From contig NC_089220.1 in NCBI RefSeq assembly GCF_963924675.1, forward strand, positions 158,509,270-158,573,269: a stretch of DNA of 64,000 nt, written 5' to 3'. Below are positions 18,358 through 62,365 of the stretch, piece by piece (position 1 is the first letter of the stretch; each line of letters opens with the position of its first letter). The notes beneath the pieces are model-generated. The model was not told the origin of the DNA, ran no database searches, and saw nothing but the letters and a program-made list of their open reading frames with translations. This stretch comes from Phocoena phocoena. Its lineage: Eukaryota > Chordata > Mammalia > Artiodactyla > Phocoenidae. Both the position numbers and the translations under genes were made by a program.

Positions 18358-18747
18358 TCTTTTTTTTTTTGCAATTGACAAGGAAATTTAGTTATTTCTG
18401 AGATATACATTTTAAAGTAATAACTAGAATTATGACTTATAACGTTATACCAGAACATACAAGATGTTTAGAAATTTCATGTAATGTCTGAAACATTTAT
18501 GTGAACATATTTCCATACAAATAACCCAAAGAAAGTTTACTACTAGTTGTTTTTTGTTTATACTGCAGATTCTTATTAGTCATCAATTTTATAAACATCA
18601 GTGTATACGTGTCAATCCCAATCGCCCAATTCAGCACACCACCATCCCAACCCCACCGCGGTTTTCCCCACTTGGTATCCATACGTTTGTTCTCTACATC
18701 TCTGTCTCAACTTCTGCCCTGCAAACTGGTTCATCTGTACCATTTTT

Positions 18748-22536: not shown

Positions 22537-22594
22537 TTTCTTAATTATTTTGCGTTTGTTTTTGTAGGTGCTTTTCTTCTCTTGTGTTTCCCAC

Positions 22595-30433: not shown

Positions 30434-30537
30434 GTTAGATAGCCTCATCCACCAGAGGGAAGACAGGAGAAACAAGAAGAACTATGATCCTGCAGCCTGT
30501 GGAACAAAAACCACATTCACAGAAAGACAAGATAAAA

Positions 30538-31435
30538 ATGCAGAGGGCTATGTACCAGATGAAGGAACAAGATAAAACCCCAGAAAAACAACTAAATGAA
30601 GTGGAAATAGGCAGCCATCCAGAAAAAGAATTCAGAATAATGATAGTGAAGATAATCCAGGACCTCGGAAAAACAATGGAGGCAAAGATCAAGAAGATGC
30701 AAGAAATGTTTAACAAAGAGCTAGAAGAATTAAGGAACAAACAAATGGAGATGAACAATACAATACCTGAAATGAAAATTACGAGAAGGAATCAATAGCA
30801 GAATAACTGAGGCAGAAGAATGGATAAGTGACCTGGAAGACAGAATGGTGTAGTTCACTGCTGCGGAACAGAATAAAGAAAAAAGGATGAAAAGAAACGA
30901 AGACAGCCTAAGAGACCTCTGGGACAACATTAAACGCAATAACATTTGCATTATAGGGGTTCCAGAAGGAGAAGAGAGACAGAAAGGACCAGAGAAAATA
31001 TTTGCAGAGATTATAGTAGAAAACTTCCCCAACATGGGAAAGGAAATAGCCACCCAAGTCCAGGAAGTGCAATGAGTCCCATACAGGATAAACCCAAGGA
31101 GAGACACACTGAGACACATAGTAATCAAATTGGCAAAAATTAAAGATAAAGAAAAATTATTGAAAGCAGCAAGGGATAAATGACAAATAACATACAAGGG
31201 AAATCCCATAAGGTTAACAGCTGATTTCTCAGCAGAAACTCTACAAGCCAGAAGGGAGTAGCATGATATACTTAAAGTAATGAAAGGGAAGAACCTACAA
31301 CCAAGATTACTCTACCCAGCAAGGATCTCATTCAGATTTGATGGAGAAGTCAAAAGCTTTACAGACAAGCAAAAGCTAAGAGAATTCAGCACCACCAAAG
31401 CAGCTCTACAACAAATGCTAAAGGAACTTCTCTAA
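30538..31435 (+). pseudogene. L1 ORF1, broken
   Basis: The ATG at 30,538 starts a coiled-coil frame closely matching the sister copy at 23.4 kb. A frameshift lies at about 30,780 and the frame resumes at 30,887-31,075. A TGA occurs in the RRM-linked region, at a different position from the stop in the sister copy, so the two copies decayed independently. The C-terminal RNA-binding segment continues to the TAA at 31,433-31,435. Confidence 0.9.
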
Positions 31436-31493
31436 GTGGGAAACACAAGAGAAGAAAAGCACCTACAAAAACAAATGCAAAATAATTAAGAAA

Positions 31494-34400
31494 ATGGTCA
31501 TAGGAACATCCATATCGATAATTACCTTAAACGTGAATGGATTAAATGCTCAAACCAAAAGACACAAACTTGCTGAATGGATACAAAAAACAAGACCCAT
31601 ATATATGCTGTCTCTAAGAGACCCACTTCAGACCTAGGGACACATACAGACTGAAAGTGAGGGGATGGAAAAAGATATTCCATGCAAATGGAAATCAAAA
31701 GAAAGCTGGAGTAGCAATACTCAGATAAAATAGACTTTAAAATAAAGAATGTTACAAGAGACAAGGAAGGATACTACATAATGATCAAGGGATCAATCCA
31801 AGAACAAGATATAACAATTATAAATATATATGCACCCAACATAGGAGCACCTCAATACATAAGGCAACTGCTGACAGCTATAAAAGAGGAAATCGACCAT
31901 AACACAGTAATAGTGGGGGACGTTAACACCTCACTTACACCAATGGACAGATCATCCAAAATGAAAATAAATAAGGAAACAGAAACTTTAAATGACACAA
32001 TAGACCAGATAGATTTAATTGATATTTATAGGACACTCCATCCAAAAACAGCAGATTACACTTTCTTCTCAGGTGTGCATGGAACATTCTCCAGGATAGG
32101 TCACATCTTGGATCACAAATCAAGCCGCAGTAAATTTAAGAAAATTGAAATCATATCAAGCATCTCTTCTGACCACAACGCTATGAGATTAGAAATGAAT
32201 TACAGGGGAAAAAACATAAAAAACGCAAACACATGGAGCCTTAATACTACGTTACTAAATAACCAAGAGATCACTGAAGAAATCAAAGAGGAAATTTAAA
32301 AATACCTAGAGACAAATGACTATGAAAACACGACAATGCAAAACCTATGGGATGTAGCAAAAGCAGTTCTAAGAGGGAAGTTTATAGCTATACAACCCTA
32401 CCTCAAGAAACAAGAAAAATCTCAAATAAACAATCTAACCTTACACTTAAAGGAACTAGAGAAAGAAGAACAAACAAAACCCAAAGTTAGCAGAAGGAAA
32501 GAAATCATAAAGATCAGAGCAGAAATAAATGAAATAGAAACAAAGAAAATAATAGCAAAGATCAATAAAACTAAAAGCTGGTTCTTTGAGAAGATAAAAC
32601 TGATAAACCGTTAGCCAGACTCATCAAGAAAAAGAGGGAGAGGACTCAAGTCAATAAAATTAGAAATGAAAAAGGAGAAGTTACTGCAGAAATACAAAGC
32701 ATCCTAAGAGACTACTACCAGCAACTCTATGCCAATAAAATGGACAACCTGGAAGAAATGGACAAATACTTAGAAAGGTATAACCTTCCAAGACTGAATC
32801 AGGAAGAAACAGAAAATATGAACAGACCAGTCACAAGTAATGAAATTAAAACTGTGATTAAAATTCTTCCAGCAAACAAAAGTCCAGGACCAGATGGCTT
32901 CACAGGTTAATTCTATCAAACATTTAGAGAAGAGCTAACACCCATCCTTCTCAAACTCTTCTAAAATATTGTGGGGGAAGGAACACTCCCAAACTCATTC
33001 TATGAGGCCACCATCACCCTGAAACCAAAACCAGACAACGATACTACAAAAAAAGAAAATTACAGACCAACATCACTGATGAATATAGATGCAAAAATCC
33101 TCAACAAAATATTAGCAAACAGAATCCAACAACACGTTAAAAGGATCATACACCACGACCAAGTGGGATTTATCCCAGGGATACAAGGATTCTTCAATAT
33201 ACACAAATCAATCAATGTGATACACCATGTTAACAAATTAAAGAATAAAAAGCATATTGTCATCTCAATAGATGCAGAAAAAGCTTTTGACAAAATTCAA
33301 CACCCATTTATGATAAAAACTCTACAGAAAGTGGGCATAGAGGGAACCTACCTCAACATAATAAAGGCCATATATGACAAACCCACAGCAAACATCATTC
33401 TCAATGGTGAAAAAATGAAAGCATTTCCTCTAAGATCAGGAATGAAACAAGGATGTCCACTCTCACCGCTATTATTCAACATAGTTTTGGAAGTCCTAGC
33501 CTCAGCATTCAGAGAAGAAAAGGAAATAAAAGGAATACAAATTGGAAAAGAAGAAGTAAAACTGTCACTGTTTGCAGATGATATGATACTGTACATAGAG
33601 AATCCTAAAAATGCCACCAGAAAACTACTAGAGCTAATCAACAATGAATTTGGTAAAGTTGCAGGATACAAAATTAATGCACAGAAATCTCTTGCATTCC
33701 TATACACTAATGATGAAAAATCTGAAAGGGATATTAAGGAAACACTCCCATTTACCACTGCAACAAAAAGAATAAAATACCTAGGAATAAACCTACCTAG
33801 GGAGACAAAAGACCTGTATACAGAAAACTATAAGACACTGATGAAAGAAATTAAACATGATACCAACAGACGGAGAGATATACCATGTTCTTGAATTTGA
33901 GGAATCAATATTGTGAAAATGAGTGTACTACCGAAAGCAATCTACAGATTCAATGCAATCCCTATCAAATTACCAATTGCAATTTTTACAGAACTAGAAC
34001 AAAAAATCTTAAAATTTGTATGGAGACACAAAGGACCCCGAATAGCCAAAGCAGTCTTGAGGGGAAAAAACGGAGCTGGAGGAAATCAGGCTCCCTGACT
34101 TCAGACTATACTACAAAGCTACAGTAATCAAGACAATATGGTACTGGCACAAAAACAGAAACTTAGGGCTTCCCTGGTGGCGCAGTGGTTGAGAGTCTGC
34201 CTGCCGATGCAGGGGACACAGGGTCATGCCCCAGTTGGCGAAGATTCCACATGCTGCGGAGCAGCTGGGCCCGTGAGCCATGGCCGCTGAGCCTGCGCGT
34301 CCGGAGCCTGTGCTCCACAACGGGAGAGGCCACAGCAGTGAGAGGCCCGCATACTGCAAAAAAAAACAGAAACATAGATCAGTGGAACAAGATAGAAAGC

Positions 34401-35520
34401 CCAGAGGTAAACCCACGCACCCATGGTCAACTAATCTATGGTAAAGGAGGCAAGGATATACAATGGAGAAAAGACAGTCTCTTCAATAAGTGGTGCTGGG
34501 GAAACTGGACAGTTACATGTAAAGGAATGAAATTAGAACACTCCCTAACACCATACAAAAAAATAAACTCAAACTGGATTAGAGATCTAAATGTAAGACT
34601 GGACACTATAAAACTCTTAGAGGAACACAAAGGAAGAACACTCTTTGACGTAAATCACAGCATGATCTTTTTTGATCCACCTCTCCTGGAGTAATGGAAA
34701 TAAAAACAAAAATAAGCAAATGGGACCTAATGAAACTTAAAAGCTTTTGCACAGCAAAGGAAACTACAAACAAGACGAAAAGACAACCCTCAGAATGGGA
34801 GAAAATATTTGCAAACAAATCAATGGACAAAGGATTAATCTCCAAAATATATAAACAGCTCATGCAGCTCAATATTAAAAAAACAAACAACCCAATCCAA
34901 AGATGGGCAGAAGACCTAAATTGAGATTTCTCCAAAGAAGACATACAGATGGCCAAGAAGCACATGAAAAGCTGCTCAAGATCACTAATTATTAGAGAAA
35001 TGCAAGTCAAAACTACAATGAGGTATCACCTCACACCAGTTAGAATGGGCATCATCAGAAAATCTACAAACAACAAATGCTGGAGCGGGTGAGGAGAAAA
35101 GGGAGAAAAGTGCAACTCACTTGCACTGTTGGTGGGAATGTAAACTGATACAGCCACTATAGTGAACAGTATGGAGGTTCCTTAAAAAACTAAAAATAGA
35201 ATTACCATATGATCCAGCAATCCCACTACTGGGCATATACCCAGAGAAAACAATAATTCAAAAAGACACATGCACCCCAGTGTTCATCGCAGCACTATTT
35301 ACAATAGCCAGATCATGGAAGCAATGTAAATGCCCATTGACAGACAAATGGATAAGGAAGATGTGGTACATATATACAATGGAATATTACTCAGCCATAA
35401 AAAGGAACGAAATTGGGTCATTTGTTGAGACATGGATGGATCTAGAGACTGTCATACAGAGTGAAGTAAGTTAGAAAGAGAAAAAAGTATCAGATATTAT
35501 CGCATATACGTGGAACCTAG
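31494..35520 (+). pseudogene. L1 ORF2 (endonuclease-reverse transcriptase), broken and SINE-interrupted
   Basis: The ATG at 31,494 begins the endonuclease domain (ITLNVNGLNAQT-like start). Readable blocks: endonuclease 31,781-32,299 with SDHN near 32,168; linker 32,336-32,614; reverse transcriptase 32,971-33,894 (307 codons) with FADD at 33,571-33,582; thumb and C-terminal region 33,913-34,924 interrupted by the SINE; and the last segment 35,280-35,474. The stop is at 35,518-35,520. Several indels and stops (for example at 32,297 and 32,612) prevent a full protein. Confidence 0.93.
34167..34361 (+). mobile_element. CHR-2 SINE inside L1 ORF2
   Basis: Starts GGCTTCCCTGGTGGCGCAG and ends with a short A tail. 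The target duplication AAAAACAGAAACTTAG (34,151-34,166) and AAAAACAGAAACATAG (34,362-34,377) differs at one base. It inserted after the L1 did and is the third layer here (NUMT, then L1, then SINE). Confidence 0.95.
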
Positions 35521-35725
35521 AAAAATGGTACAGATGAACCGGTTTGCAGGGCAGAAATTGAGACACAGATGTAGAGAACAAACATGGATACCAAGAGGGG
35601 AAAGCGGCGGGGGAGGGTGTGTGTGTGATGAATTGGGCAATTGGGATCGATATGCATACACTGATGCGTATAAAATTGATGACTAATAACCTGCTGTAAA
35701 AAAAATAGAAAAAAACTATTAAAAA

Positions 35726-38927: not shown

Positions 38928-39715
38928 AAGTCCAGTGTTTTCTTATTGATTTTCTCTCTAGATGATCGACCCATTGATGAAAGTAGAGTCAGTAGAAAAA
39001 TAGTCCCTACTATTATTGTATAGCAGTCTGTTTCTTCCTCTAGGGCTGTAAATATTTGTTTTATATATTTAGGTTCTTCTATGCTGGGTGCATAAATATT
39101 TACAAATGTTATATCTTATTGTTGCATTGGCCCCTTTATTGTTACATAATTACCATCTTTGTCTCTTATTGCAACCTTTGTCTTAAGGTCTATTTTATCT
39201 AATATAAATATAGCTACCCAAGCCTTTTTTGGGTTTCTGATTATATGAAAGATCTTTTTTCCATTCCTTCACTTTTACTTTGTGTGTGTTCTTAAAGACA
39301 AAGTGAATCTCTTATAAGCAGCATACAGATGGGTCTTGTTTTGTTTTTTTTTTAACATCTTTATTGGAGTATAATTGCTTTACAATGGTGTGTTACTTTC
39401 TGCTGTAGAACAAGTGAATCAGCTATATGTATACATATATCCCCATATCCGCTCCCTCTTGCATCTCCCTCCCACCCTCCCTATCCCACCCCTCTAGGGG
39501 GTTACACCGCATGGAGTGGATCTCCCTGTGCGATGCAGCTGCTTCCCACTAGCTATCTATTTTACATTTGGTAGAGTGTATATCTCAATGCTACTCTCTC
39601 ACTTCGTCCCAGCTTACCCTTCCCCCTCCCCATGTCCTCAAGTCCATTCTCTACGTCTGCATCTTTATTCCTGTCATGCCCCTAGGTTCTTCAGAACCAT
39701 TTTTTTTAAGATTCC

Positions 39716-42700
39716 ATATATATATATATGTTAGCATACGGTATTTGTTTTTCTCTTTCTGACTTACTTCACTCTGTATGACAGACTCTAGGTCCATCCA
39801 CCTCACTACAAATAACTCAATTTCATTTCTTTTTATGGCTGAGTAATATTCCATTCTATATATGTGCCACATCTTCTTTATCCATTCATCTGTCGATGGA
39901 CACTTAGGTTGCTTCCATGTCCTGGCTATTGTAAATAGTGCTGCAATGAATATTGTGGTACATGACTCTCTCTGAATTATGGTTATCTCAGGGTATGCCC
40001 AGTAGTGGGATTGCTGGGTCATAAGGTAGTTCTATTTTTAGTTTTTTAAGGAGGTATCAACTTACATCCTAACCAACAGAGCAAGAGTGTTCCCTTTTCT
40101 CCACACCCTCTCCAGCATTTATAGTTTGTAGGTTTTTTGATGATGGCCACTCTGACCGGTGTGAGATGATACCTCATTGTAGTTTTTGATTTGCATCTCT
40201 CTGATGATTAGCAATGTTGAGCATCCTTTCATGTGTTTGTTGGCAGTCTGTATATATTCTTTGGAGAAATATCTATTTAGGTCTTCTGCCCAATTTTGGA
40301 TTGGGTTGTTTGCTTTTTTGATATTGAGCTGCATGAGCTACTTGTATATTTTGGAGATTAATACTTTGTCAGTTGCTTCATTTGCAAATATTTTCTGCGG
40401 TTCTAAGGGTTGTCTTTTCGTCTTGTTTTTGGTTTCCTTTGCTGTGCAAAAGCTTTTAAGTTTCATTAGGTCCCGTTTCTCTAAGAGGTGGGTCAAAAAG
40501 GATCTTGCCATGATTTATGTCATAGACTGTTCTGCCTATATTTTCCTCTAAGAATTTTATAGTATCTGGCCTTACATTTAGGTCTTTAATCCATTTTGAG
40601 TTTATTTTTCTTTATAGTGTTAGGGAGTGTTCTAATTTCATTCGTTCACATGTAGCTGTCCAGTTTTCCCAGTACCACTTATTGAAGAGGCTGTCTTTTC
40701 TCCATTGTATGTTCTTGCCTCCTTTATCAAAGATACGGTGACCATATGTGCATGGGTTTATCTCTGGGCTTTCTATCCTGTTCCATTGATCTATATTTGT
40801 TTTTGTGCCAGTACCATGTTGTCTTGATTACTGTAGCTTTGTAGTATAGTCTGAAGTCAGGGAGCCTGATTCTTCCAGCTCCGTTTTTTGTTCTCAAGAT
40901 TTCTTTGGCTATTCGGGGTCTTTTGTGTTTCCATACAAATTGTGAAATTTTTTGTTCTACGCCTGTGAAAAAATGCCACTAGCAGTTTGATAGGGATTGC
41001 ATGGAATCTGTAGATTGTTTTGGGTGGTGTAGTCATTTTCACAATGTTGATTCTTACAATCCAAGAACATGGTATATCTCTCCATCTGTTTGTATTGTCT
41101 TTAATTTCTTTCATCAGTGTCTTATAGTTTTCTGCATACAGATCTTCTGTCTCCTTAGGTCAGTTTATCCCTAGGTATTTTATCTTTCTCTTGTAATGGT
41201 AAATGGAAGTGTTTCCTTAATTTCTCTTTCAGATTTTTCATCATTAGTTTATGGGAATGCAAGAGATTTCTGTGCATTAATTTTGTATCCTGCTACTTTA
41301 CCAGATTCATTGATTAGCTCTCGTAGTTTTGTGGTAGCATCTTTAGGATTCTCTATCTTTAGTATCATGTCATCTGCAAACAGTGACAGTTTTACTTCTT
41401 CTTTTCCGATTTGGATTTCTTTTTCTTCTCTGATTGCTGTGGCTAAAACTTCCAAAACTGTGTTGAAAAATAGTGGTGAGAGTGGGCAACCTTGTCTTGT
41501 TCCTCATCTTAGAGGAAGTGGTTTCCATTTTTCACCATTGAGAACGATGTTGGCTGTGGGTTTGTCATATATGGCCTTTATTATGTTGAGGTAGTTTCCC
41601 TCTATGCCTGTTTTCTGTAGAGTTTTTAATCATAAATGGGTGTTGAATTTTGTCAAAAGCGTTTTCTGCATCTATTGAGATTATCATATGGTTTCTATCC
41701 TTCAATTTGTTAATATGGTGTATCACATTGATTGATTTGTGTATATTGAAGAATCCTTGCATTACTGGGGCAAATCCCACTTGATCATGATATATGATCC
41801 TTTTAATGTGCTGTTGGATTCTGTTTGCTAGTATTTTGTTGAGGATTTTTGCATCTGTGTTCATCAGTGATATTGGCCTGTAGTTTTCTTTTTTTGTGAC
41901 ATCTTCATCGGGTTTTGGTATTAGGGTGATGGTGGCCTCATAGAATGAGTTTGAGAGTGTTCCTCCCTCTGCTATATTTAGGAAGATTTTAAGAAGGATA
42001 GGTGTTAGCTCTTCTCTAAATGTTTGATAGAATTGGCCTGTGAAGCCATCTGGTTCCAGGCTTTTGTTTGTTGGAAGACTTTTAATCACAGTCCATTTCA
42101 GTGCTTGTGATTGGTCTGTTCATATTTTGTATTTCTTCATGGTTCAGTCTTGGCAGGTTGTACTTTTTTAAGAATTTGTCCATTATCTTCCAGGTTGTCC
42201 ATTTTATTGGCATATAGTTGCTTGTAGTAGTCTCTTATGGTCGTTTGTATTTCTGCAGTGTCAGTTGTTACTTCTCCTTTTTCGTTTCTAATTCTGTTGA
42301 TTTGAGTCTTCTCCCTTTTTTTCTTGATGTGTCTGACTAACGGCTTATCAATTTTGTTTATCGTCTCAAAGAACCAGCTTCTATTTTTATTGATCTTTGC
42401 AGTTGTTTCCTTCATTTCTTTTTCATTTATTTCTGATCTGATCTTTATGATTTCATTCCTTCTGCTAACTCTGGGGGATTTTTGTTCTTCTTTCTCTAAT
42501 TGCTTCAGGTGTAAGGTTAGGTTGTTTAATTGAGATATTTCTTGTTTCTTGAGATAGGATTGTATTGCTATAACTTCCCTCTTAGAACTGCTTTTGCTGT
42601 ATCCCATAGGTTTTGGGTCATCATGTTTTCATTGTCATTTGTTTCTAGGTATTTTTTGATTTCCTCTTTGATTTCTTCAGTGATCTCTTGGTTATTTAGT

Positions 42701-43455
42701 GGCATATTGTTTAGCCTCCATGTATTTGTATTTTTTACAGTTTTTTCCTGTAATTGATATCTAGTCGTATAGTGTTGTGGTTGGAAATGATACTTGATAC
42801 GATTTCAGTTTTCTTAAATTTACCAAGGCTTGATATGTGACCCAAGATATGATCTATCTTGGGTAATGTTCCATGAGTACTTGAGAAGAAAGTGTATTCT
42901 GTTGTTTTGGATGGAATGTCCTATAAATATCAATTAAGTCCATCTGGTCTAATGTGTCATTTAAAGCTTGTGTTTCCTTATTTATTTTCTGTTCGGATAA
43001 TCTGTCCATTGGTGAAAGTGGGGTGTTAAAGTCCCCTACTGTTATTGTGTTACTGTCGATTTCCCCTTTTATGGCTGTTAGCACTTGCCTTATGTATTGA
43101 GGTGCCCCTATGTTGGGTGCATAAATATTTACAAGTGTTATATCTTCTTGGATTGATCCCTTGATCATTATGTAGTGTCCTTCTTTGTCTCTTGTAGTAG
43201 TCTTTATTTTAAAGTCTATTTTGTCTGACATGAGAATTGCTACTCCACCTTTTGATTTCCATTTTCATGGAATAACTTTTTTCCATCCCCTCTCTTTCAG
43301 TCTGTATGTGTCCCTAGATCTGAACTGGGTCTCTTGTAGACAGCATATATACAGGTCTTGTTTTTGTATCCATTCAGCCAATCTGTGTCTTTGGTTGGAT
43401 CATTTATTCCATTTACATTTAAAGTAATTATCGATATGTAAGTTCCTATTACCAT
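39716..43455 (-). pseudogene. L1 ORF2, broken
   Basis: The ATG is near 43,455. Readable pieces: endonuclease 42,854-43,231, linker and start of reverse transcriptase 42,137-42,607, palm 41,565-42,089, the FADD-containing block 41,249-41,455, and C-terminal pieces 40,857-41,114, 40,119-40,334 and 39,651-40,022. Frames change many times, so it is inactive. Confidence 0.88.
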
Positions 43456-43513
43456 TTTCTTAATTGTTTTGGGTTTGTTTTTGTAGGTCTTTTCCTTCTC
43501 TTGTGTTTCCTGC

Positions 43514-44397
43514 CTAGAGAAGTTCCTTTAGCATTTGTTGTAAAGCTAGTTTGTGGTTGCTGAATTCTCTTAACTTTTGCTTGTCTGTAAACATTTTAAT
43601 TTCTCTGTCAAATCTGAATGAGATCCTTGCTGGGTAGAGTAATCTTGGTTGTAAATTTTTCCCTTTCATCACTTTAAATATATTGTGCCACTTGCTTCTG
43701 GCTTGCAGAGTTTCTGCTGAAAGATCAGCTGTTAATGTTATGGGGGTTCCTTTGTATGTTATTTGTTGCTTTTCCCTTGCTGCTTTTAATATTTTTTCTT
43801 TGTATTTAATATTTGATAGTTTGAATAATATGTGTTGGCATATTTCTCCTTAGATTTATCCTATATGGGACTCTGTGCTTCCTGGACTTGACTATTTCCT
43901 TGCCCATGTTAGGGAAGTTTTTGACTATAATTTCCTCAAATATTTTCTCAGACGCTTTCTTTTTCTCTTCTTCTGGGATCCCTAAAATTCAAATGTTGGT
44001 GTGTTTAATGTTGTCCCAGAAGTCTCTGAGACTGTCCTCAATTCTTTTCATTATTTTTTTCTTTATTCTGCTCTGTGGTAGTTATTTACACTGTTTTATC
44101 TTCCAGGTCACTTCTCCGTTCTTCTGCCTCAGTTATTCTGCTGTTGATTCCTTCTAGAGATTTTTTCATTTCATTTATTGTGCTGTTCATCATTGTTTGT
44201 TTGCTCTTTAGTTCTTCTAGGCCCTTGTTAAATGTTTCTTATATTTTCTTCATTCTGTTTCCAAAATTTTGGATCATCTATACTATCACTACTCTGAATT
44301 CTTTTTCAGGGAAACTGCCTATTTCCTCTTCATTTGTTTGGTCTGGTGGGTTTTTACCTTGCTCCTTCATCTGCTGCATACTTCTCTGTCTTCTCAT
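43514..44397 (-). pseudogene. L1 ORF1, broken
   Basis: The start codon at 44,397 precedes a short run with the charged ORF1 N terminus (RRQRSMQQMKEQ). The rest is visible only in fragments with multiple frame changes, ending at a TAG at 43,514-43,516. Confidence 0.75.
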
Positions 44398-45944
44398 TTT
44401 GTTTAACTTACTGTGTTTGGGGTCTCCTTTGTGCAGGCTGCAGGTTCGTAGTTCCTTTTGTTTTAGGTATCTGTCCCCAGTGGATGAGGTTGGTTCAGTG
44501 GCTTGTGTAGGCTTAGTGGTTGAGGGGACTGGTGCCCATGTTCTGGTTGGTGGAGCTGGATCTTGTCTCTCTGGTGGGCAGGGCCACGTCTGATGGTGTG
44601 TTTTGAGGTGTTTGTGAACTTAATATGATTTTGGGCAGTCTCTCTGCTAATGAGTGGGGTTGTGTTTCTGTCTTACTAGTTGTTTGGCCTGTGATGTCCA
44701 GCACTGGAGCTTGCTGGCTGTTGGGTGGAGCTGGGTGTTAGCATTGAGACGGAGATCTCTGGGGGAGCTCTCGACGATTTATATTACATGGGGCTGGGAG
44801 GTCTCTGGTGGTCCAGTGTCCTAACCTTGCCTCTCCCACCTCAGTGGCTCAGGCCTGACACCAGGCCAGAGCACCAATACCCTGTCAGCCACACAGGTGG
44901 AAATACATTTGCTCTTGATTCTTGCATGTTCCTGGCCTGTGAACATAAGAGACTTGTCTCCTGCAGCTGTTAAGATGAGTAGTTCTCTGCACCTGCCCAC
45001 CAGAATCTTAAAAGTTTATATAGAGTTTCAGTCGCATATTCAGTGCCGATGGTCTCAACCCTGCCTTACCTCTCAAAGGCTGCATCCTTGGAAAAGCTAT
45101 GTTTGTTTGTTTTTTAATCCATTCAGCCACTGTATATCTTTTTGTTGGAGAATTTAGTTCACTTACATTTAATGTAGTTATTAATAGATATGGACTTGTT
45201 GAAATTTTGTTAATTGTTTTCGGGATGTTTTGTAATTCCTCTGTTCCTTTCTTTTCTTGTTCTCTTCCCTTGTGATTTGATGGTTTTTCTGAGTGGTATG
45301 CTTAGATTTCTTTATCTTTTGTGTGTTTTCTGTATGGTTTTGCTTTGTGATTACCATGAAGCTTACATAAAACATCTAAGAGTTATAACAGTTTATTTTA
45401 AGCTGATGACAACTTAAGTTTGAATGATTCTAAAACTCTACATTTTTACTCTCCCCTCCCAGCACATTTTATGTTTTTGATGTCACATTTGCATCTTTTT
45501 ATCTTTAGTATCCATTAACAAATTATTGAAGTTATAGTTATTTTTACTATTTTGCCTTTTAACCTTTATACTAGTTATATAAGTGATTAACCCACCACCA
45601 TTGCAGCATTAGATTATTCTGAATTTGACTCTACATATTTACCTTTATCAGCAAGATTTATACTTTATGTTTCCTGTTACTAATTAGTGCCCTTTTATTC
45701 CAGCTTAAAGAAATCTTTTTAACATTTCTTGTAGGGTTAGTCTATTGGTGCTGAACTCCTTCAGTTTTTGCCTGTCTGGAAAACTCTCTCTCCTTCAGTT
45801 CTGATTTGTGTATATAGATTTTGCATCCTGCAACTTTACTAAATTTGTTTATTAGTTCTAAGAGCTTTTTCTGGTGGAGTCTTTAGGGTTTTGTATATAT
45901 AATATGTTCTCCTTCAATTCTGAAGGACAACTTTGCTGGGTAGG

Positions 45945-52574: not shown

Positions 52575-54004
52575 CACCAGGAGACGCAGGTGAGTTTCAG
52601 AAAACCTCCCCAGGTAAGCTTCCTGGTGCTGCCAGCCCGGCAACACAGACCCCCGATGTCACCAATGGCCCCAACCCGGGATAAGGACAGTCCTCATGCC
52701 CCCTTCTTGTTTTCACCCTGTGGACCCCAAATACAGGGCCCCTCTTTTTTGCTTTCTGTGTTTGGGTACCCTAGATAATTTTGTTTTCAAAAGATACTCC
52801 ATGGTTTTGTCTTCTTACGTGCCTACCGATTTGCATCCTATTGAGTCCCTGTTGGAGCAGGTCACGCTTCACTTTTTGCTCTCATTCAGCAGTTTCGCCT
52901 GTTCAATTCTAATCTGACTCTAGAACATTTTACAGTAAAGCCCAAGCTTGAGGATCACCCACTTGGACTTGGAAGCGAAACTGGATCCACAGAGGGCCTT
53001 CAGCGTATTTCCAACGAAAGGGCTTTGCCTGTGCTGAGCTGCAAATACCCTCATTCTGGAAACATTTCTAGTCATCGTGGGATGGGCTGGAAGTGAGTGT
53101 CTCTTTTGAAAAACTGAGTTTTTGTTTCTTACCTAAGCCCCCTTGGTTTCTTACAGAAAAAAGAGGTATTCTAAATATGTCACTCTAGCAAGAAGGACAG
53201 AGCTCTGGTGACCCAAGAAGTAAGAGAACAAAACCCGAAACAGAAAGATGCACAGAGAATATGAATAGTCTACAGGAAAGGTAAATATCTCTTAATCTCT
53301 TATATGAAAAACTTAATAAGATAAATGCAAAATAGATCCACAATGGATTGCTTTTCTTTTAACAAAATGAAATTTCGATTTTACCCTTTGGTAAAATCAG
53401 AATCAGCATTTGGGGAAACAGGCATTCTCTTGTAGGCATTCTCATATACTGCGGGTAGAGTGTAAACTTCTATAAAGAACAATCTGTGTCAAAATGAAAA
53501 TTGCATATACCCTTTGATCTAGTCATTCTGATAGAAACACTCCCATATGTGCAAATGTATATTTATATATATATAATAATATAATTGTATTTTATTTATA
53601 CACACACACACACATAAAACAACTCTAAGAAGGTTGAGGAATGACATTAGCATCGTGGCCATATGAGACATCCCTCTTCCCGCCCGCAACAAAAATGGCA
53701 TCACGAACAAAAGTGACTTTAAGAGAACTGTGGGATCCACCAAGGGACCCAGGAGGAGTCTTGCCCACGCATTGCATCTATGCATGCCTGTCTTCCTGAT
53801 TGCTTGCCTGTCTCTAGTATTCTATTGTGTCCACAGAACCTATTTTTCCCTGTATATGCAAATTGTATGTTTATAAGTGAAAATGTTAATACATTAAATG
53901 ATTGTTCATTTTAAAGCATAAGAAAAAAAGACGAACATCAGTCCTGGCTGTGGACCCTTCAGTGGTCCACGAGCTTCCTCCGGCCCCTCTCAGGCAAAGA
54001 ACCT
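52575..54004. other. Putative intron or intergenic DNA with an L1 remnant and simple repeats
   Basis: About 53,410-53,560 resembles a decayed plus-strand L1 ORF2 C-terminal segment (GAACAATCTGTGTCAAAATG; CCCTTTGATCTAGTCATTCT). Short AT and (AC)n repeats lie at about 53,560-53,615. No exon is convincing. Confidence 0.45.
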
Positions 54005-54106
54005 CAACAGGTATTTCTCAAAGGAGCTATACAAATGGCCAACGAGTATATGAGAAGGTGCTAGACATCACCAATCAGGAAAATACAAATCAAAACCACC
54101 GTGAGG
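54005..54106 (+). mobile_element. Old L1 ORF2 fragment, left of the ERV
   Basis: CTCAAAGGAGCTATACAAAT ... AATACAAATCAAAACCACC is the L1 ORF2 C-terminal region. It continues on the other side of the ERV at 60,573-60,610, showing that this L1 was the target. Confidence 0.8.
54092..54106. repeat. Target-site duplication left of the ERV
   Basis: AAAACCACCGTGAGG, matching AAAACCCACAATGAGG at 60,557-60,572 at 13 aligned positions with one extra base. A duplication of about 15 bp beginning at an A-run is typical of L1 endonuclease targets, not of retroviral integrase (4-6 bp). Confidence 0.75.
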
Positions 54107-54250
54107 AGCAGGCAAGCAAAGGCACCTGTTGTTCTCACTGCCCCCCACCCCTGCTCTGCTGCAGCAGGGGTCCCAATAAAGCCCTGACTGAACTTGGCCT
54201 CTGATCAATTTCTGTTGATTAAGGAGGCCAAGAACCCTAGTTGGTAACAT
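54107..54250 (+). repeat. ERV 5' R-U5 (U3 absent)
   Basis: GGCAAGCAAAGGCACCTGTT through CTGCTGCAGCAGGGGTCCC to AATAAAGCCC (signal at about 54,175) matches the R part of the 3' LTR at 60,470-60,545. U5 follows to about 54,250. L1 sequence, not U3, lies directly upstream. Confidence 0.8.
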
Positions 54251-54255
54251 ATTTT

Positions 54256-54273
54256 GTGTGCCCAACGTGGGGC
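54256..54273 (+). other. Primer-binding-site-like sequence (tRNA-Lys type)
   Basis: GTGTGCCCAACGTGGGGC follows U5 directly. The last 13-14 bases match the complement of the 3' end of a lysine tRNA, and the first bases are degraded. Placement is right for a retroviral minus-strand primer site; the tRNA assignment is tentative, because lysine is unusual for gamma-type pol genes. Confidence 0.5.
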
Positions 54274-56329
54274 TTGTCCCTTCTAGGGGAGAGGATCTGG
54301 GCACCTCCGGGACCACCGAACGCAGCTTCCCCGTGGGTGACAAGCGGCCACCTGAACCTCTTGTTTCAGCATCACCTCGTTTGGTAAGTCTGCCTTTCTG
54401 GCCCCCGAGAGGCCTCGGTACCCTCATTCAGGCAACGCTTCTCCCCTCCCCTTTGTCCCTCACCATTTTCCCTTTCCCTCTCCTGAAATCTCTCTACTTC
54501 TCTCTCTCTCCTCTCCTCCTTCTGTCCTTCCAAGAGAGTGGATGTCAGGCAAGCTACAGCTCCCTCCGGCCGGCAGTGGCTCACCGTGATGGGTGACAAG
54601 CAGAGGTGGGAGAGGCTTCCATCACACCTTGCAGACCTTGGTCCAGCGGGCTCTCCCTGACTGGAGATTTATGAGAGCGATAGAGGTTCAAACCTCATAT
54701 CGTGTAGTGGGCTGTAAGTCTGATCGTCGCCATATTCTCACCTTTATTTCCCTGCCACCAAGAGAAGTCCCATTGGGAACGAGCTGAAGTGGCAGATTTC
54801 TATATACTGGTGCATGCGTGGGTAAGAGTCCTACCGGTGGGTCGGGGACCCACAGACGACATACAACTGGCTGGTTTCCGGGCTTGATCACCCCGGATGG
54901 GCAGTGGACAGGGTGCTCCCTCCTTCACTGGCCCTTTCTGGAAGCATGCAGATTGGTACCTGAATAGACAGCCGCAGGGGGCGGGCTGAAAAGGCAATCT
55001 CTCTGTCTCTTTCTCATTTTCAGGCTTTTCTGTCCCTCCTCCCTTTACCTCTCCCTTGGTCCTTACCCCTACCCTCCCATCCCCTTAATCCTGAAAACTT
55101 CCTGTTTGTGTCTTTAAGTTTTGCGATTGGTATCTTTGTGATGTAGTTTTTGTCCAGCTGTTCCTGGAAGTCACTGCCGACATTGTGAGCACATACAAAC
55201 ACAGCCCGCATTGCCTGAGACTCCAGCCTTGGGTTACTTAGTGGGATTTCAAAGAACAAAAAGAAAAGACAGGAGCTTGCATCTCCCTCTCCTCTGCACT
55301 TGCAATGTCGCTATTCTGCCCAGGCTCTCAGGAACTACCTGATTCATCTGTAGTCCCCCAGACTGAGGGGGGAAAAAAAAGGCCATTTTAAATTCAAGCG
55401 GGAAAACTATGAGATCTCTGCTTCTACAGAAATTAACTTGTCTAGCTTAAGCTATGGGTTTAATTAATACAGACCCATCTTTAGAGTCATCAACATAAAG
55501 TACAATACTTTCATTGTATCTAGGGTTACTGGAAGTCAATAAGTGTACATTGTTCCTGTTATAAAAATCTGTCAACAGGGACAATAACCTGATATGATTA
55601 AATTTTTAAGTAAATGTAACTGGGATAAGAACTTTTTGCTAAACTACATAGGAATAATTATGTTTTGGAAACATCCATCTAAAACAGTCTCTCCCATTTT
55701 TGGTGAATTTGAAGCTAAAGTAATTAAGGTAGGAATTAATTGTATATGTAGGCCATTTCAAATAAGATAAACTATTGGAACATTAATTGCTAAACAGGTC
55801 TAAATTTACCTACTTTTGTCTTCTTGTGAGAGAGAAATTAAGCTGTTTGGTGCCACCGTGAGATGTTCGCTACCAATTTGTGGAATGCTAATGTGAAAGA
55901 CAGTTCATGGTGGCTTAAGGAAAGTAGGATGCGTTAAAAAAAGAAGGTACGAGGAATGGGAATATATTTTGTTGAAAGGAAAAAGGATGACTTTGTCCTA
56001 GAGCTGGCTGTTTCTGAATGGGGAAAGAATAAGGGACTAAGTATGGCTACAGAAAGTTGCAGGTTTGCGGAAGAGGAACATTAGGAACTTTGGTCAGGAT
56101 TTTCTAAGGTTGGATTAAATTTAATTAGGTAAATGGATTTTATTAAGAGTAGGTTGATGCAAGACTGGGCTTGGTTCCTCTCTCTCGTAAAAAAAGTTTT
56201 CCCGGGATCAGGTTCAAAGTCAGCCCCCACCTTTCCCCCCTTCGGGAAGTAGCGATGGCAACAGAGGGCTTATTAGAGTCAACAGCCCCTTCTCAATGGG
56301 AGACTTAGGAAACCCATAAGGCAGGTTCT
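54274..56329 (+). other. ERV leader and decayed 5' gag region
   Basis: About 2 kb between the primer site and readable capsid sequence. The first part (54,280-55,000) is GC-rich with short frames. From 55,360 to 56,110 it is AT-rich with no coding signal. Any matrix-coding part is too decayed to define. Confidence 0.5.
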
Positions 56330-57115
56330 CAGGGAACCCTAACAAGTTTAGGGATGAATTTATCAGGCTGGGATTGACATTCTCTCTCACCTGGCAGGAC
56401 ATCATGGATTATTCTGGCCCACTGTTGCACCCCAGATGAAAAGGAGCGCATACTGAGAAAGCCCAGGGAACACTCAGATGGCCTACTGGCCACCAGTCCG
56501 CATGGCCAAGTTTATCAGGTAGGTGGGATGCAATCCCAGAACATGACCCGTGCCGGGACTGTGAAGATTGTGTAGGCCAAGCTAGGATGAGACGTTAGAT
56601 TACTTGTCTGTCAGAAATAATGAAAAGGTGTATGGTGAAGCCAGTAAATTACAATAAGGTCTGAGAGGTTACACAGGAAAAAGGTGAGAGCCCAGCAGGC
56701 TTCCTGAGCCGGGTGACAGAGGCATTCAGGAAGGACACCAATACAGACCCTGAGTCTGCAGGAGGGAGGACACTCTGGGCCATGCATTTTATCACCAAGC
56801 CCACTCCTGATATCTGGAGACAGTTCCAGAAGCTTGCGGCTGGGCCCCAAGCCCCGCTGTCAACCCTGAGGAGGCCTTCAAGGTCTGTAACAACCAAGAA
56901 TTAACAGAGGAGGCCAATGAGGATAAGAGGCTAATAAAGAAGACGCAGCCTCTGGCCGCTCTGATCCACCCACCACCTCGAGGGGACCCTGGAGGGCCGA
57001 GAAGGCTGGACAGACCACCAAGAAGCCCCTTGGACCCAAACCAGTGTGCCTTTTGTCAGAAAGGGGGCACTGGGAGGCGGAATGTCCTGGGTGCCCTCCT
57101 GTGGGATGCCCGAGC
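56330..57115 (+). pseudogene. gag: ERV gag (capsid and nucleocapsid) remnant
   Basis: Capsid-like sequence runs in several frames from about 56,340. The most readable block is at 56,713-56,904, after a segment encoding PAGFLSRVTEAFRKDT, which matches the conserved capsid region of gammaretroviruses. A nucleocapsid zinc-knuckle start (CAFCQKGG) lies at about 57,043, after which the frame shifts. Gag normally forms the particle core. Many stops and shifts are present. Confidence 0.75.
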
Positions 57116-57410
57116 GCCTCCCTGGCTCCAGATCCATCCTCGTGACTGCAGCGGAGCCTCGGGTCACCCTCGATGTGGCAGGTAGGAGAACTGAATTTAT
57201 TGTAGACGCTGGAGCCGCCTGCCCTGCTCTGACTTGGCCGGCTGGCCCCCTCTCCAGCCATGACTGTGCTGTGATGGGAGTCGATGGACAGCCAAAGGAA
57301 AGGCGATTTACCATCCCCTCTTGCCTGTGGAATCGGGTCCATTATTATTATTCACTCCTTTTTATACATGACAGAATGCCCTGTCCCTTTCCTCGGGAGA
57401 GATAAGTTAG
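57116..57410 (+). pseudogene. pro: ERV protease remnant
   Basis: Frame 57,046-57,405 includes EPRVTLDV and then FIVDAGAACPALT, the retroviral aspartic protease active-site region (57,202-57,216). The catalytic triad normally reads D-T-G; here it is D-A-G, an unfavourable change. The flap and C-terminal helix are incomplete. Confidence 0.82.
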
Positions 57411-57464
57411 GAGCTAGTATATTCTTAGGTCAGGGTGAATCCAAGAAGGTAATCCGAACGGAGA

Positions 57465-58140
57465 ATGCACCTATTAATAGTCCCAGATGACCCACCTGTT
57501 GGGCATCAAAATATGCCCCAAGACATCCCCCAAGAAATTACAGAACAGGTAGATCCTGCAGTTTGGGATACCTCGGTGCCAGGAAGGGCAAAACGTGTTC
57601 CCCCAATAAAAATAAGGTTAAGGCCTGGGGAAAAATACCCCTGGAAGACACAATATCCTTTAAAGCCTGAGGCCCTGAGGGGAATCCAACCGCTGCCCAG
57701 CGGATTCCTGAAACACGGACTCATTAGGCCCTGCCAATCCCCTTGCAGCACCCCGAACCTCCCCGTACAGAAGCCTAACGGGGAGTGTCGGTTTGTGCAA
57801 GACTTACGAGCATTAATGAGAGCTTTGCAATTAGGGAAGGATAAGAAATTAAATATTTTCACTGACTCTAAGTATGGGTTCCACGTGCTACATGCTCATG
57901 TTGCCAGATGGAAAGAAAGAGGAATGTTAACCACTAGAAGTTCCCCCATAAAACATAAAGATTTGATTCTGGTCTGTTAGAAGCAGTGTCGCTTCCTACC
58001 CAGGTAGCAGTAATGCACTGCAGGGGCCATCAGAGGGATGGATCTTTTGTGATCTTTTGCGAGCCAAGGGAACAGCAAAGCTGATCAAATTGCAAAACAG
58101 GCAGCTCAGTTGCGGGAGCCTGAACAAGTTAAGGCTCTAG
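57465..58140 (+). pseudogene. pol: ERV pol with large in-frame deletion: RT start joined to RNase H
   Basis: One open frame of 171 codons (57,465-57,980) starts with the fingers region of reverse transcriptase (YPLKPEALRGIQP, then TPNLPVQKPNGECRFVQDLR near residues 65-115). Within a few residues it passes to the late part of RNase H (KKLNIFTDSKYGFHVLHAH). The palm with its catalytic YxDD, the thumb, the connection domain and the first part of RNase H are absent, roughly 450-500 residues. The frame stays open across the junction at about 57,815-57,825. Further RNase H sequence continues to about 58,140 in shifted frames. Confidence 0.85.
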
Positions 58141-59380
58141 TGATTGGCCCCCCCTGAACTCCCTAGCCTTCCCCAGTTCTCCCCCCCAGGAATAAGAAAA
58201 TGCTGAGAAATGGAGCTCTGAGAAGGGAAGCACAGGCTGGCATCAAAAGGAGGATGTTTCTAATCCCTGAAGCCCAACAATGGAGACTCACCAAGAGCTT
58301 ACATGACGCCACCCACTACGGGAGGGATGCACTATGGGACTTGAGGCAAAAGGCTTTTTCAGGAAAGGGGCTTGAAAGAACAATAAAACAAGGAACGCTT
58401 GCCACGCCGGTAATAAACCACAGGCCCATCCAATCCCCCCTTCGTTACTCAGGCCAATTCAACGCCGAGGGACATACCCGGGGGAAGCCTGGCAGTTAGA
58501 TTTCACCCAAATGCCCCCACGATCAGGATATAAATATCTTATGGTGGGGCTTCCCTGGTGGCGCAGTGGTTGAGAGTCCGCCTGCCGATGCAGGGGACAC
58601 GGGTTCGTGCCCCGGTCTGGGAGGATCCCGCATGCCGCGGAGCGGCTGGGCCCGTGAGCCATGGCCGCTGAGCCTGCGCGTCCGGAGCCTGTCCTCCGCA
58701 ATGGGAGAGGCCACAACAGTGAGAGGCCCGCGTAACGCATAAAAAAAAAAAAAAATATATCTTATGGTGTTTGTTGATACTTTCCCCACCCGATCTGAGA
58801 ACGCCCCACAAGTCTGTAAGTCCCTTTTAAAAGAAAGAATTTTTCGGTTTGGACTTCCAAAGTCCCTGCAGAGCGATAACGGGCCCTCTTTTTATAGCCA
58901 AAATCACACAGGGGCTCACAACAGCCCTAGGGCTAGACTATAAGCTACACACCTCTTGGCACCCCCAGTCTTCAGGGAAGGTAGAGAAAATGAACCATCC
59001 TTTAAAGAAAACCTTAGCAAAGCTCTGCCCAGAGACTCATGCACCCTGGACCAACCTGCCTCTTATTGCACTCCTCAGGGTCCGTGTAGCCCCCAGGAGT
59101 GGTCTGAAACTTAGTCCCCTTGAAATGACCTACGGGAGACCTTTTCTTACTACTGACATTCTACTGGATGAGGAAGTGAACCAGACCCTGAGATATATTA
59201 TTCTAGGACAAGTTCAGAAAGCAATCCAGGACTATGCCTACAAGGCACTGCCAGCTCCCACTAAAAATACAGAGGAAGGAGCAGTTCCTTCACAAATAAA
59301 CCCCGGGGACCCAAGTTCTTCTCAACATCTGGAAAGAGAGCTCCCCCAAAGACCAACTATTGCCAACTATTACTCTTAAA
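58141..59380 (+). pseudogene. pol: ERV integrase, SINE-interrupted and frameshifted
   Basis: The N-terminal zinc-binding part is readable at 58,200-58,499 (LHDATHYGRDALWDLRQKAF). A CHR-2 SINE interrupts the domain at 58,547-58,756. The core continues at 58,760-59,380: an acidic active-site residue (GAT at 58,875-58,877, within SDNGP) lies in one frame and the catalytic glutamate (GAG at 58,984-58,986, in KVEKMN) in another. A frameshift therefore falls between them. The C-terminal part runs to a stop at about 59,379. Confidence 0.88.
58547..58756 (+). mobile_element. CHR-2 SINE inside the ERV integrase
   Basis: Starts GGGCTTCCCTGGTGGCGCAG and ends in an A tail of about 15 bases. The target duplication ATATCTTATGGTG is perfect at 58,534-58,546 and 58,757-58,769. 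Among the closest copies to the CHR-2 pattern in this window, so likely young. Confidence 0.96.
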
Positions 59381-59439
59381 GTAATTTAAACCACCCCCAC
59401 TGCTGTCAAACTGCAAGGGGTATCTGTTGGGTACATCTG

Positions 59440-60129
59440 TCCAGACTAAAGCTTTTACTTCCAGAAACCCCACGGGTCACAACAGAAGAACAATGCACCT
59501 GTGAGCTAGCGGAAGATCTGAGATGCCTATTCCAACGACAGGTACCATCAACAGGTAAGTAAAATGATGTAGTGAGTTGGCTCCTATTTGAAGCCTTAAT
59601 GGGACTTGGGACCTCTCTCGTTTCCTTGGCTGATGTGGTTCTTGACAATCGTCTGGCCCTTGAGTACCTTCTGGCAGAGCAAGGCAGAGTTTGTGCGGTA
59701 ACTAATACTTCCCGCTGCACTTGGATCAATGCAACAGGACAGGTAAAAGTTAATATTAAGGAAATAGAAGCTCAGGCAGAGTGGCTTCATCATTTTGGCA
59801 GGGGTGATATCACCTTCCTCGTCTGGTGGTCAACAGTCAAGGAAGCCCAAAGTTAACCTGGTTCCTTCCCTTTCTAGGCGCTTTAATGGCAATTGTTCTC
59901 CTCCTTTTTAGCCTTTGTTTTGTTTAACCTTTTGGTTAAGTTTGTGTCTTTTAGGCTCCAACAGTTTGAAGTAAGGCTCACGATGGCCCAAGAAATTCAG
60001 CCCATTCCAGCGGAAAGTGGCCCAGGTCCCTACAGGTCCTTGGAACAGTCAGGTCCTTCTCCTCTAGGGGAGGCTAGGGTCTTTCAGAAGAAGAGACCTT
60101 CAGCCTCTTACCCCTTAATAAATGTGTAG
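59440..60129 (+). pseudogene. env: ERV envelope remnant (mainly transmembrane subunit)
   Basis: The surface subunit is almost entirely missing. The transmembrane subunit is readable at 59,572-59,856, containing DVVLDNRLALEYLLAEQG and then CAVTNTSRC. In this position gammaretroviral-type envelopes carry a C-x6-C-C motif; the middle cysteine is replaced by arginine. A hydrophobic segment follows at about 59,880-59,950 and a cytoplasmic tail to a stop at 60,127-60,129. Frame changes separate the parts. It is not a complete envelope. Confidence 0.82.
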
Positions 60130-60136
60130 AGTCTCT

Positions 60137-60146
60137 TAGGGGGGAA
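60137..60146 (+). other. ERV polypurine tract
   Basis: TAGGGGGGAA sits immediately before the TGAGACAGG start of U3, the standard plus-strand primer position. Confidence 0.7.
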
Positions 60147-60545
60147 TGAGACAGGCTGGGACCTGGGACCCTATACTGCAGTGCTGCAATGCTTGCACCT
60201 GGACATACCTCTCCTCAAGCAACAAATTAAAAGAAACCGTATGGGACTAAAAATTACTGTGTGCATGCTCAGTTGGGGCAAATTGTAGACAAAAGATACA
60301 AAGAGACCAAAAACACCCAACTGCCATTTTGAGGAGCCTGGAGCAAAAGCAGGGCACTGCGCATGCCCCTGGCACACAACACCACCTAAGCTACCCCTTC
60401 GGCCCAACCCCTGGACACACCCCTACCTTCACCCCATGTAAGGAACAAGCTCGCCCCCTCTCGGCGTGGGCAAGCAAGGGAACCTGTTGTTTGTTCTCAC
60501 TCCCTCCTGCTGCTGCAGCAGGGGCCCCAATAAAGCCTTGCCTGA
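60147..60545 (+). repeat. ERV 3' U3-R (U5 absent)
   Basis: Starts TGAGACAGGCTGGG after the polypurine tract. U3 runs about 320 bp. R starts near GGGCAAGCAAGGG (about 60,468) and contains the poly(A) signal AATAAA at 60,529-60,534. Only about 10 bases of R follow the signal before an A-rich tail; no U5 follows. This is where a polyadenylated viral transcript would end. Confidence 0.8.
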
Positions 60546-60560
60546 AAAAAACAAACAAAA
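60545..60560 (+). repeat. A-rich tail at the ERV 3' end
   Basis: AAAAAAACAAACAAAA directly follows the R region, about 10 bases after AATAAA. It overlaps the start of the right target duplication (60,557-60,572). Confidence 0.8.
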
Positions 60561-60572
60561 CCCACAATGAGG
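60557..60572. repeat. Target-site duplication right of the ERV
   Basis: AAAACCCACAATGAGG; see the left copy at 54,092-54,106. The interrupted L1 continues straight after it. Confidence 0.75.
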
Positions 60573-60610
60573 AATCACTCACACCTGTCATCAAAAAGAC
60601 AAGAAATATA
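60573..60610 (+). mobile_element. Old L1 ORF2 fragment, right of the ERV
   Basis: AATCACTCACACCTGTCATC followed by AAAAAGACAAGAAATA continues the L1 ORF2 sequence interrupted at 54,106. Confidence 0.8.
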
Positions 60611-61125
60611 GTTCCAGTTCAAGATGGTGACATAAGAGGATTCTGAGCTCACCTCCCACCACGGACACACCAAATCTATAGCTACATACCAGGCAACCGA
60701 GAAAAAAACGCACACTGAAGCAGGTAGGAGAGGCTGAGACAATCTCATCATAAACCCGGTGCGGCAACCTGCAATCAAGAGGGAACTGACGACGGAGCTT
60801 ATCCCTGAGGAGCAAAGGGGTTGAACCCCACATCTGGCACCCCAACTTTTAAGACCTTCACCTAAGAGACGAGCCCCCAAAACTTCCAGGTTTGAAAGCC
60901 ACCAGGGCTTGCCTCCCTGAGACCCACAGGCTATGAGTGAACTGAGAACAGTTCTTAAAGGGCTCACACAGACTCACCTGGCTACCCAGCACCAAGGCCC
61001 AGTACAGAGGCAGCTGACTGAAAAGCACCCGATTCGCTTGTCTGAAAGCTTTGGCCTGAGGGGCAGGCTTCTCACTGAACACACAACGAAAGGCCAACTG
61101 AAATACTCGACAGAGACTATGGCCT

Positions 61126-61789
61126 CTTTTTGAATTATGGTTTTCTCAGGGTATATGCCCAGTAGTGGGACTGCTGGAAGTCATGTACCAAAATGTTCAT
61201 TGCAGCTCTATTTACAATAGCCCAGAGATGGAAACAACCTAAATGCCCATCATCGGATGAATGGATAAAGATGATGTGGCACATATATACAATGGAATAT
61301 TACTCAGCCATAAAAAGAAACGAAACTGAGTTATTTGTAATGAGGTGGATAGACCTAGAGTCTGTCATACAGAGTGAAGTAAGTCAGAAAGAGAAAGACA
61401 AGTACCGTATGCTAACACATATATATGGAATTTAAGGAAAAAAATGTCACGAAGAACCTAGGGGTAAGACAGGAATAAAGACACAGACCTACTAGAGAAC
61501 AGACTTGAGGATATGGGGAGGGGAAAGGGTGAGCTGTGACAAAGCGAGAGAGAGGCATGGACATATATACACTACCAAATGTAAAATAGATAGCTAGTGG
61601 GAAGCAGCCGCATAGCACAGGGAGATCAGCTTTGTGACCGCCTGGAGGGGTGGGATAGGGAGGGTGGGAGATGCAAGAGGGAAGAGATATGGGAACGTAT
61701 GTATATGTATAGCTGATTCACTTTCTTATAAAGCAGAAACTAACACACCATTGTAAAGCAATTATACTCCAATAAAGATGTTAAAAAAA
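61126..61789 (+). mobile_element. 5'-truncated L1 with perfect 12-bp target duplication
   Basis: Last part of ORF2 (readable at 61,193-61,435) plus the 3'UTR and an A tail. The flanking AGACTATGGCCT is identical at 61,114-61,125 and 61,790-61,801. The 3' end (CTCCAATAAAGATGTTAAAA) is the same subtype as the L1 at 39,341. Confidence 0.95.
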
Positions 61790-62365
61790 AGACTATGGCC
61801 TTCGGGAGCCATTGTCATGCTTTCCTTCTGCCCCACCTTAGGTTGGGGTGCCTCCAAGAAAGGGGCTTATGTACACATCTGACACCTAGCTTTTGTGTCT
61901 GTCAACCAGAGAACACATCCCTTGATACCGTGGCTCTGGTGGCCAGCGGGGCTTGTGTTCATGGGATCCTCAGGATGGTAGCAAACAAAGAAATAGTTCT
62001 TAACTGGCTATTACCACAGGGTTCAAGGCAGAGGGAGCAGACAGAAATACCCATCTCCCAGTCTTCTAAAAGAGATATTTGCAAACTGTAAAAGCTTCTA
62101 CATGAGGGCTTGGCTTCCAATCAGCCTGAATCTAGGTGCTGACTGAAATCCTCCCCTGACAGGTCTCGGCACACCCTCAACTACAGCAAGCCACTAAGAA
62201 TAAAGTAGGCTTCTTGGACAATCAATCACAAAGGTTTGAGAGATATCCAAGAGCTAGGGCAGAGTCGAACGATAAGGTTCATCTCCTACACAAAGCCACT
62301 CCTTCAAGACTGGGAGAGGTAGTTGTTTCATCTAACGCATATAAGCCATAGACTGTCGAGGAAAA

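Follow-up and report, generated by a model that had tools for sequence, protein, structure and literature searches.

A stretch of 64,000 nucleotides from Phocoena phocoena (RefSeq assembly GCF_963924675.1, contig NC_089220.1, positions 158,509,270 to 158,573,269, forward strand; hereafter the window) carries an endogenous retrovirus (ERV) element at 54107-60556, which begins at the R region of a long terminal repeat (LTR) and ends with U3-R and an A-rich tail. This element is almost certainly a processed copy of a gammaretrovirus-like ERV RNA, made by the long interspersed element LINE-1 (L1), and as such a HERV-W-like processed pseudogene, a kind already known. The whale family to which it belongs, apparently one other than the primate W group, was probably a recurrent L1 template: about 7 of 30 independent leader-bearing copies appear to be L1-made, including one from a read-through RNA with host flank, whose source locus is apparently now a single LTR and which would keep the inside of a lost provirus. 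A preliminary description of the window had proposed that a full-length gammaretrovirus-like RNA was retrotransposed by L1; the R-to-R layout and the gag, pol and env parts agree with this, whereas the copy as it now stands lacks the reverse transcriptase (RT) core and the surface subunit (SU).

As that description had claimed, no U3 precedes the element: R was located at 54108-54190 and U3 had no match to the left. At the other end, for which a U3-R terminus with an A-rich tail about 10 bases past AATAAA had been noted, the signal lies at 60529-60534 and the A run starts at 60545; U5 gave no significant match to the right of the element. The suggested alignment of the two ends paired 54108-54190 with 60466-60544 (74 gap-free sites with 8 differences, Kimura two-parameter distance 0.12, plus three gaps). 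This distance reflects the LTR pair of the source and later change, not the age of the insertion alone; LTR-LTR dating of processed copies would mislead, since at no time did their ends form a newly synthesised pair of LTRs. The marks of a processed copy given in the available text of PMC5016936, namely R-U5 without a 5' U3, U3-R without a 3' U5, poly(A) and a duplication of variable length, were all found in the window. Two complete LTRs with a 4-6-bp duplication, as made by integrase, were absent there and present at three other loci (L057, L058 and L063).

The flanking duplication of roughly 15 bp was recovered at 54092-54106 and 60557-60572. Its two sides (15/16 bp) match imperfectly, with two substitutions and one indel, and the match can be extended to 28 columns (AAAATACAAATCAAAA.. 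/ AAAAAACAAACAAAACC..). Of 20,000 random window pairs, 20 reached the score of the short form; for the extended form the figures were 8 of 20,000 random pairs and 0 of 20,000 shuffles. When the flanks were joined, the alignment continued across the join in all four other L1 ORF2 copies that matched within the window, at 69-73% identity and with gaps, and in each of them the repeated segment is present once; the four L1s are paralogous empty sites.

The older L1 that had been described on both sides was recovered in part: the joined flanks align with the four L1s, but the host piece spans only about 53993-54106 plus 60573-60608, and on the right it gives way at once to a different L1-like sequence. 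This second sequence, the L1 origin of both flanks and the ease with which A-rich sequence aligns (the 20 random pairs above) would suit a repeat that is no target-site duplication, having come from pieces of two different L1 copies brought together or from L1 self-similarity. Such an origin is scarcely tenable, since in the four other L1 copies the segment occurs a single time and keeps phase with the flanks on either side, and since duplications also border L070, which has another L1 on both sides, and L059 and L060, whose flanks have no L1 match. It was rejected on these grounds. Directly to the right of the element, window positions 60612-61800 comprise an L1-like 5' end followed by opposite-sense L1 ORF2 pieces, possibly a twin-primed L1.

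Relatives were sought over the same 2.51-Gb genome, with about 40 candidates scored per query (U3-R, of 1,472; R-U5-leader, of 895; flank of L065, of 1,068); family counts are those of the best candidates, and 5'-truncated copies are under-counted. The R-U5-leader query returned 42 rows (best 40 of 895), four of them R-U5 only and two second pieces of counted loci, and 35 loci were examined upstream. Part or all of U3 stood above R in 29 of these, and unrelated sequence ran up to the start of R in the other six. With the window included, leader-bearing loci starting at R without U3 numbered 7 of 36, or 7 of 30 after a tandem array was merged. The array, a segmental one at C2:121,109,000-121,364,000, holds seven U3-bearing copies (L068, L069, L071, L073, L074, L075 and L079), 37-49 kb apart, with left flanks that are 94-99% identical. 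The junction flanks of the seven R-start loci had nothing in common between any two, so these are separate events. In 17 of 23 U3-bearing loci (one counted per array) a TATAAGG-like box precedes the R anchor by 25-39 nt (median 30), which places the start of the R-start copies at the transcription start.

The preliminary description had named U3-like sequence to the left in orthologous copies, or a 4-6-bp duplication with complete LTRs in related species, as signs of a truncated provirus. Among the relatives in the same genome, six others also lack the 5' U3 and share the start site. An ordinary integrase-made provirus that later lost its 5' U3 and 3' U5 by deletion would be in keeping with the two-LTR structure of other family copies and with the further deletions of the window copy (RT core, SU). 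It would nevertheless need two deletions that stop at the transcription start and the polyadenylation site, beside an A run and a 15-bp duplication. The same 5' end recurs at six loci with unrelated flanks, four of which also have the R-plus-A-rich 3' end (L059, L060, L062 and L070), and the paralogous empty sites hold the target once. A truncated provirus is therefore very improbable, and was rejected on these grounds.

Proviruses of the family, which the preliminary description had suggested seeking in other cetacean genomes, were found in the same genome. Three of four U3-bearing controls (L057, L058 and L063) carry an LTR at either end and are bordered by exact 4-bp duplications (TAGG, AAAA and CTTT); for the fourth (L085) no 3' LTR was seen in the stretches fetched. 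For six R-start copies, the duplication scores of their own left and right sides were 16 (window), 15, 14, 13, 12 and 8, with the right side of L065 set after its run of 19 A (A19); the 30 cross pairs averaged 6.7 and scored at most 11.

From the 3' side, 37 of 39 other U3-R matches (best 40 of 1,472) run on from R into U5, 33 as determined by BLAST and four by reading. In two of the 39 (three of 40, counting the window) R gives way to A at one shared base (TGCCTG/AAAA). Both A-ended copies, L010 and L013, are 5'-truncated; L010 has L1 on both sides, CTTT/AAAA and 15 A, and L013 has six A. Of the U3-R matches, 33 could be measured, and in 14 of these the LTR lies between exact 4-bp duplications, about 0.1 (33/256) being expected by chance; the other six of the 39 could not be measured, a fuzzy match served to place the LTR end, and the 33 include at least one 5' LTR with leader (L036), whose right side is not flank. 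This last locus (L036/L082, C3:155882906-155883526) also has several short interspersed element (SINE) pieces in the stretches below it.

One R-start sister has a likely source locus. L065 (C2:72122103, minus strand; L065/L100, C2:72113605-72122103) starts with R-U5 on its left and has a complete LTR (U3-R-U5) on its right, beyond which lie about 425 nt of flank, AATAAA, A19 and then TAAAGTCCCTGA. The last bases before the R of L065 are repeated by TAAAGTCCCTGA, giving an exact 12-bp duplication. Among the scored matches (about 40 of 1,068), a 416-nt piece of this flank has one near-full-length paralog, at C5:128302785 (L115; 89% over 390 nt); the other 38 are at most about 250 nt long and resemble interspersed repeats. 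At the C5 locus, on another contig, a family LTR meets the flank at the base where it does so in L065 (86.5% over 912 nt), which makes this the likely source locus for most of the RNA. The RNA most likely came from a provirus once present at C5. About 10.7 kb of sequence above the C5 LTR yielded no internal ERV piece, and the 4-mers beside that LTR differ (GTTC and GGAA); the provirus would later have shrunk to a single LTR. A match at C6 (L122, C6:108421424-108421685) starts at the first base of the flank, is 73% identical over the first 257 nt and has no family LTR; it may be a paralog of the source site that never received the provirus.

Several observations weigh against L1 processing. Because the target is A-rich, it is ambiguous where the tail of the window copy stops and the duplication starts: the duplication can be read as 15/16 bp after a tail of 12 nt, as about 21 bp after 7 A, or as about 27 bp with almost no tail, and the tail length of this copy is thereby not fixed. 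The tails of L059 and L060 are mixed, A-rich rather than pure, and L059 lacks the AATAAA stretch of R. The duplication of L062 is weak (score 8 in 60 nt, inside the cross-pair range), L010 has little or no duplication beyond its A's and L013 no clear one, while L064 has lost its 3' end, and neither a tail nor a duplication can be recognised in it. In L065 the final 27 nt ahead of A19, which include AATAAA, were found neither at the C5 source nor within 3 kb below it; the source may have changed since, or the RNA may have ended in an unusual way. Lastly, the insertion site in the window reads TC/AAAA and not the textbook TT/AAAA. That site would suit an RNA that the retrovirus's own RT had copied and that end joining then took up at a break, the L1 endonuclease playing no part; end-joining capture of reverse-transcribed RNA is known in principle. 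The long duplications, 3' A tails and 5'-truncated members form the pattern of target-primed reverse transcription, and capture of this kind is accordingly most unlikely here.

Copying by L1 would have proceeded as follows. A germ-line transcript of a gammaretrovirus-like ERV would start at the LTR transcription start (R), cross gag-pol-env into the 3' LTR, and be cut and polyadenylated about 10 nt past AATAAA or, for L065, at a downstream signal. L1 proteins acting in trans would then carry out target-primed reverse transcription into an older L1 fragment, and the insertion would leave a long target-site duplication. That L1, rather than another source of RT, was the copier and that germ cells were the place of the event is inferred.

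Processed HERV-W copies of Old World primates are described in the available text of two papers (PMC5016936, PMC5537654) as having an R-U5 5' end, a U3-R 3' end, poly(A), a duplication of 5-15 bp and a TT/AAAA motif, and the same text presents HERV-W as the only HERV group mobilised by L1. As far as the accessible part of PMC6995185 goes, platyrrhine ERV-W has no processed copies. The whale family resembles HERV-W in its R-U5/U3-R ends, poly(A) tail, long duplication, several copies and coexisting proviruses (as given in the excerpts of PMC5016936 and PMC5537654); it differs in host order and in that one whale sister copy is a read-through with a transduced flank and a source locus. A LINE-1 retrocopy of ARTenvV in Hippotraginae antelopes is likewise a LINE-1-copied ERV RNA in an artiodactyl, with a 14-bp duplication and a short A run (PMC9604959, available portion). 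That retrocopy derives from one spliced env transcript of a single old locus, whereas the whale family is multi-copy and R-to-R, from gag-pol-env RNAs. The same portion of PMC9604959 refers to surveys that found retroduplicated copies, ERVs included, in various mammals.

Gammaretrovirus-like ERVs of cetaceans, as here, are the subject of a class I ERV survey (PMC8297934), which was mined by RT protein and in whose main text, as available, the words processed and pseudogene do not occur. Since the window copy has no RT core, an RT-based survey of this type, as far as its available text describes it, could miss it. Among the titles and abstract openings returned by searches of open-access text for processed ERV families, no description of this whale ERV family was found. 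Why L1 copies some ERV RNAs and not others is called open in the HERV-W review (PMC5537654, text as available). An apparent second L1-used ERV family, in another mammalian order and with processed and integrase-made copies in one genome, allows the common features of such RNAs to be compared directly, and the transduced flank connects an L1-made copy with the place from which its RNA came.

The internal content of the element was investigated by homology searches (Table 1). Gag_p30, RNase H and the transmembrane (TM) part of TLV_coat scored above the Pfam cut-offs, whereas the protease and the integrase zinc domain fell short of them; for the integrase core piece, Pfam gave no family at E 0.1. 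The domains present (Gag_p30, gammaretroviral RT/RNase H, TLV_coat TM) are gammaretrovirus-like (class I). Among solved structures the TM piece is nearest to Syncytin-2 (E 4e-9) and then Syncytin-1 (E 4e-7). Database relatives numbered 47 for the integrase piece and 17 for the TM piece, and two RNase H relatives are named, from the toothed whales Delphinus delphis and Mesoplodon densirostris. The closest integrase relative, P0001 (94% over 69% of the query), has the window's frame change near the integrase end, which is absent in the five others of the alignment that extend this far. No relative of the integrase piece was found in IMG/VR, and the NCBIfam search gave nothing useful.

The RT ends near residue 101 and picks up again near residue 538 of a solved gammaretroviral RT. 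This gap is common to the database relative P0048, and L064 of the same genome keeps about 1.3 kb there, which points to a deletion in this lineage. A splicing trace was considered and set aside, as the junction has no clear donor or acceptor and L064 keeps the segment; the gap is treated as a probable deletion. For both P0001 and P0081 the longest contig listed has 7,589 bases and may be one and the same; these relatives could be the orthologous copy in another cetacean.

The primer-binding site was assigned with a tRNA-Lys1,2 pattern; a tRNA-Pro pattern gave 0 matches. The SINE inside the integrase region is CHR-like and has its own 13-14-bp duplication. CHR-like SINEs (PMC10531181, available part), together with the two named RNase H relatives, point to a whale or dolphin.

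Table 1. Features of the processed ERV element and its target site (window coordinates)
Feature	Position	Strand	Remark
Left piece of host L1, insertion target	53993-54106	+	ORF2 part, sense strand; 69-73% identity to four other L1 copies over joined flanks
Left target-site duplication	54092-54106	+	AAAACCACCGTGAGG
5' R, start of copied RNA	54107-54190	+	Matches 3' R; first base uncertain by one to three bases; start region common to six other copies
U5	54191-54252	+	LTR end ..GGTAACA, set by comparison with other LTRs
Primer-binding site, tRNA-Lys1,2-like	54256-54273	+	3 mismatches in 18
gag capsid remnant (Gag_p30)	56665-56901	+	Pfam PF02093, E 3e-11
Protease remnant, weak	56965-57402	+	Pfam RVP, E 0.005, below cut-off
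RT N-terminal part joined directly to RNase H	57453-57977	+	Lacks the RT core, about 1.3 kb, near 57811; RNase H E 8e-9
Integrase zinc-binding remnant, weak	58167-58496	+	Pfam PF17921, E 0.003, below cut-off
Left duplication of inner SINE	58533-58546	+	AATATCTTATGGTG; read in sequence
CHR-like SINE with A tail	58547-58755	+	Later insertion into integrase region; at least five further copies or pieces in window
Right duplication of inner SINE	58756-58769	+	TATATCTTATGGTG; read in sequence
Integrase core remnant	58831-59376	+	Solved integrases E 2e-8; 47 database relatives, best 94% over 69%
env TM remnant	59563-59853	+	Directly after pol stop, SU missing; Pfam TLV_coat, E 7e-7
Polypurine tract	60138-60146	+	AGGGGGGAA; read in sequence; also in L010 and L013
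U3	60147-60465	+	LTR start TGAGACAGG; 39 further genomic matches scored with U3-R query (best 40 of 1,472)
3' R	60466-60544	+	AATAAA polyadenylation signal at 60529-60534
A-rich tail	60545-60556	+	Reads 7 A followed by C AAA C, except under the longest reading of the duplication
Right target-site duplication	60557-60572	+	AAAACCCACAATGAGG
Right piece of host L1	60573-60608	+	

Elsewhere in the window, long L1 copies were identified at 18541-23660, 30437-35721 and 39647-44584; two of them lie in opposite orientation and are 94% identical over 3.7 kb.

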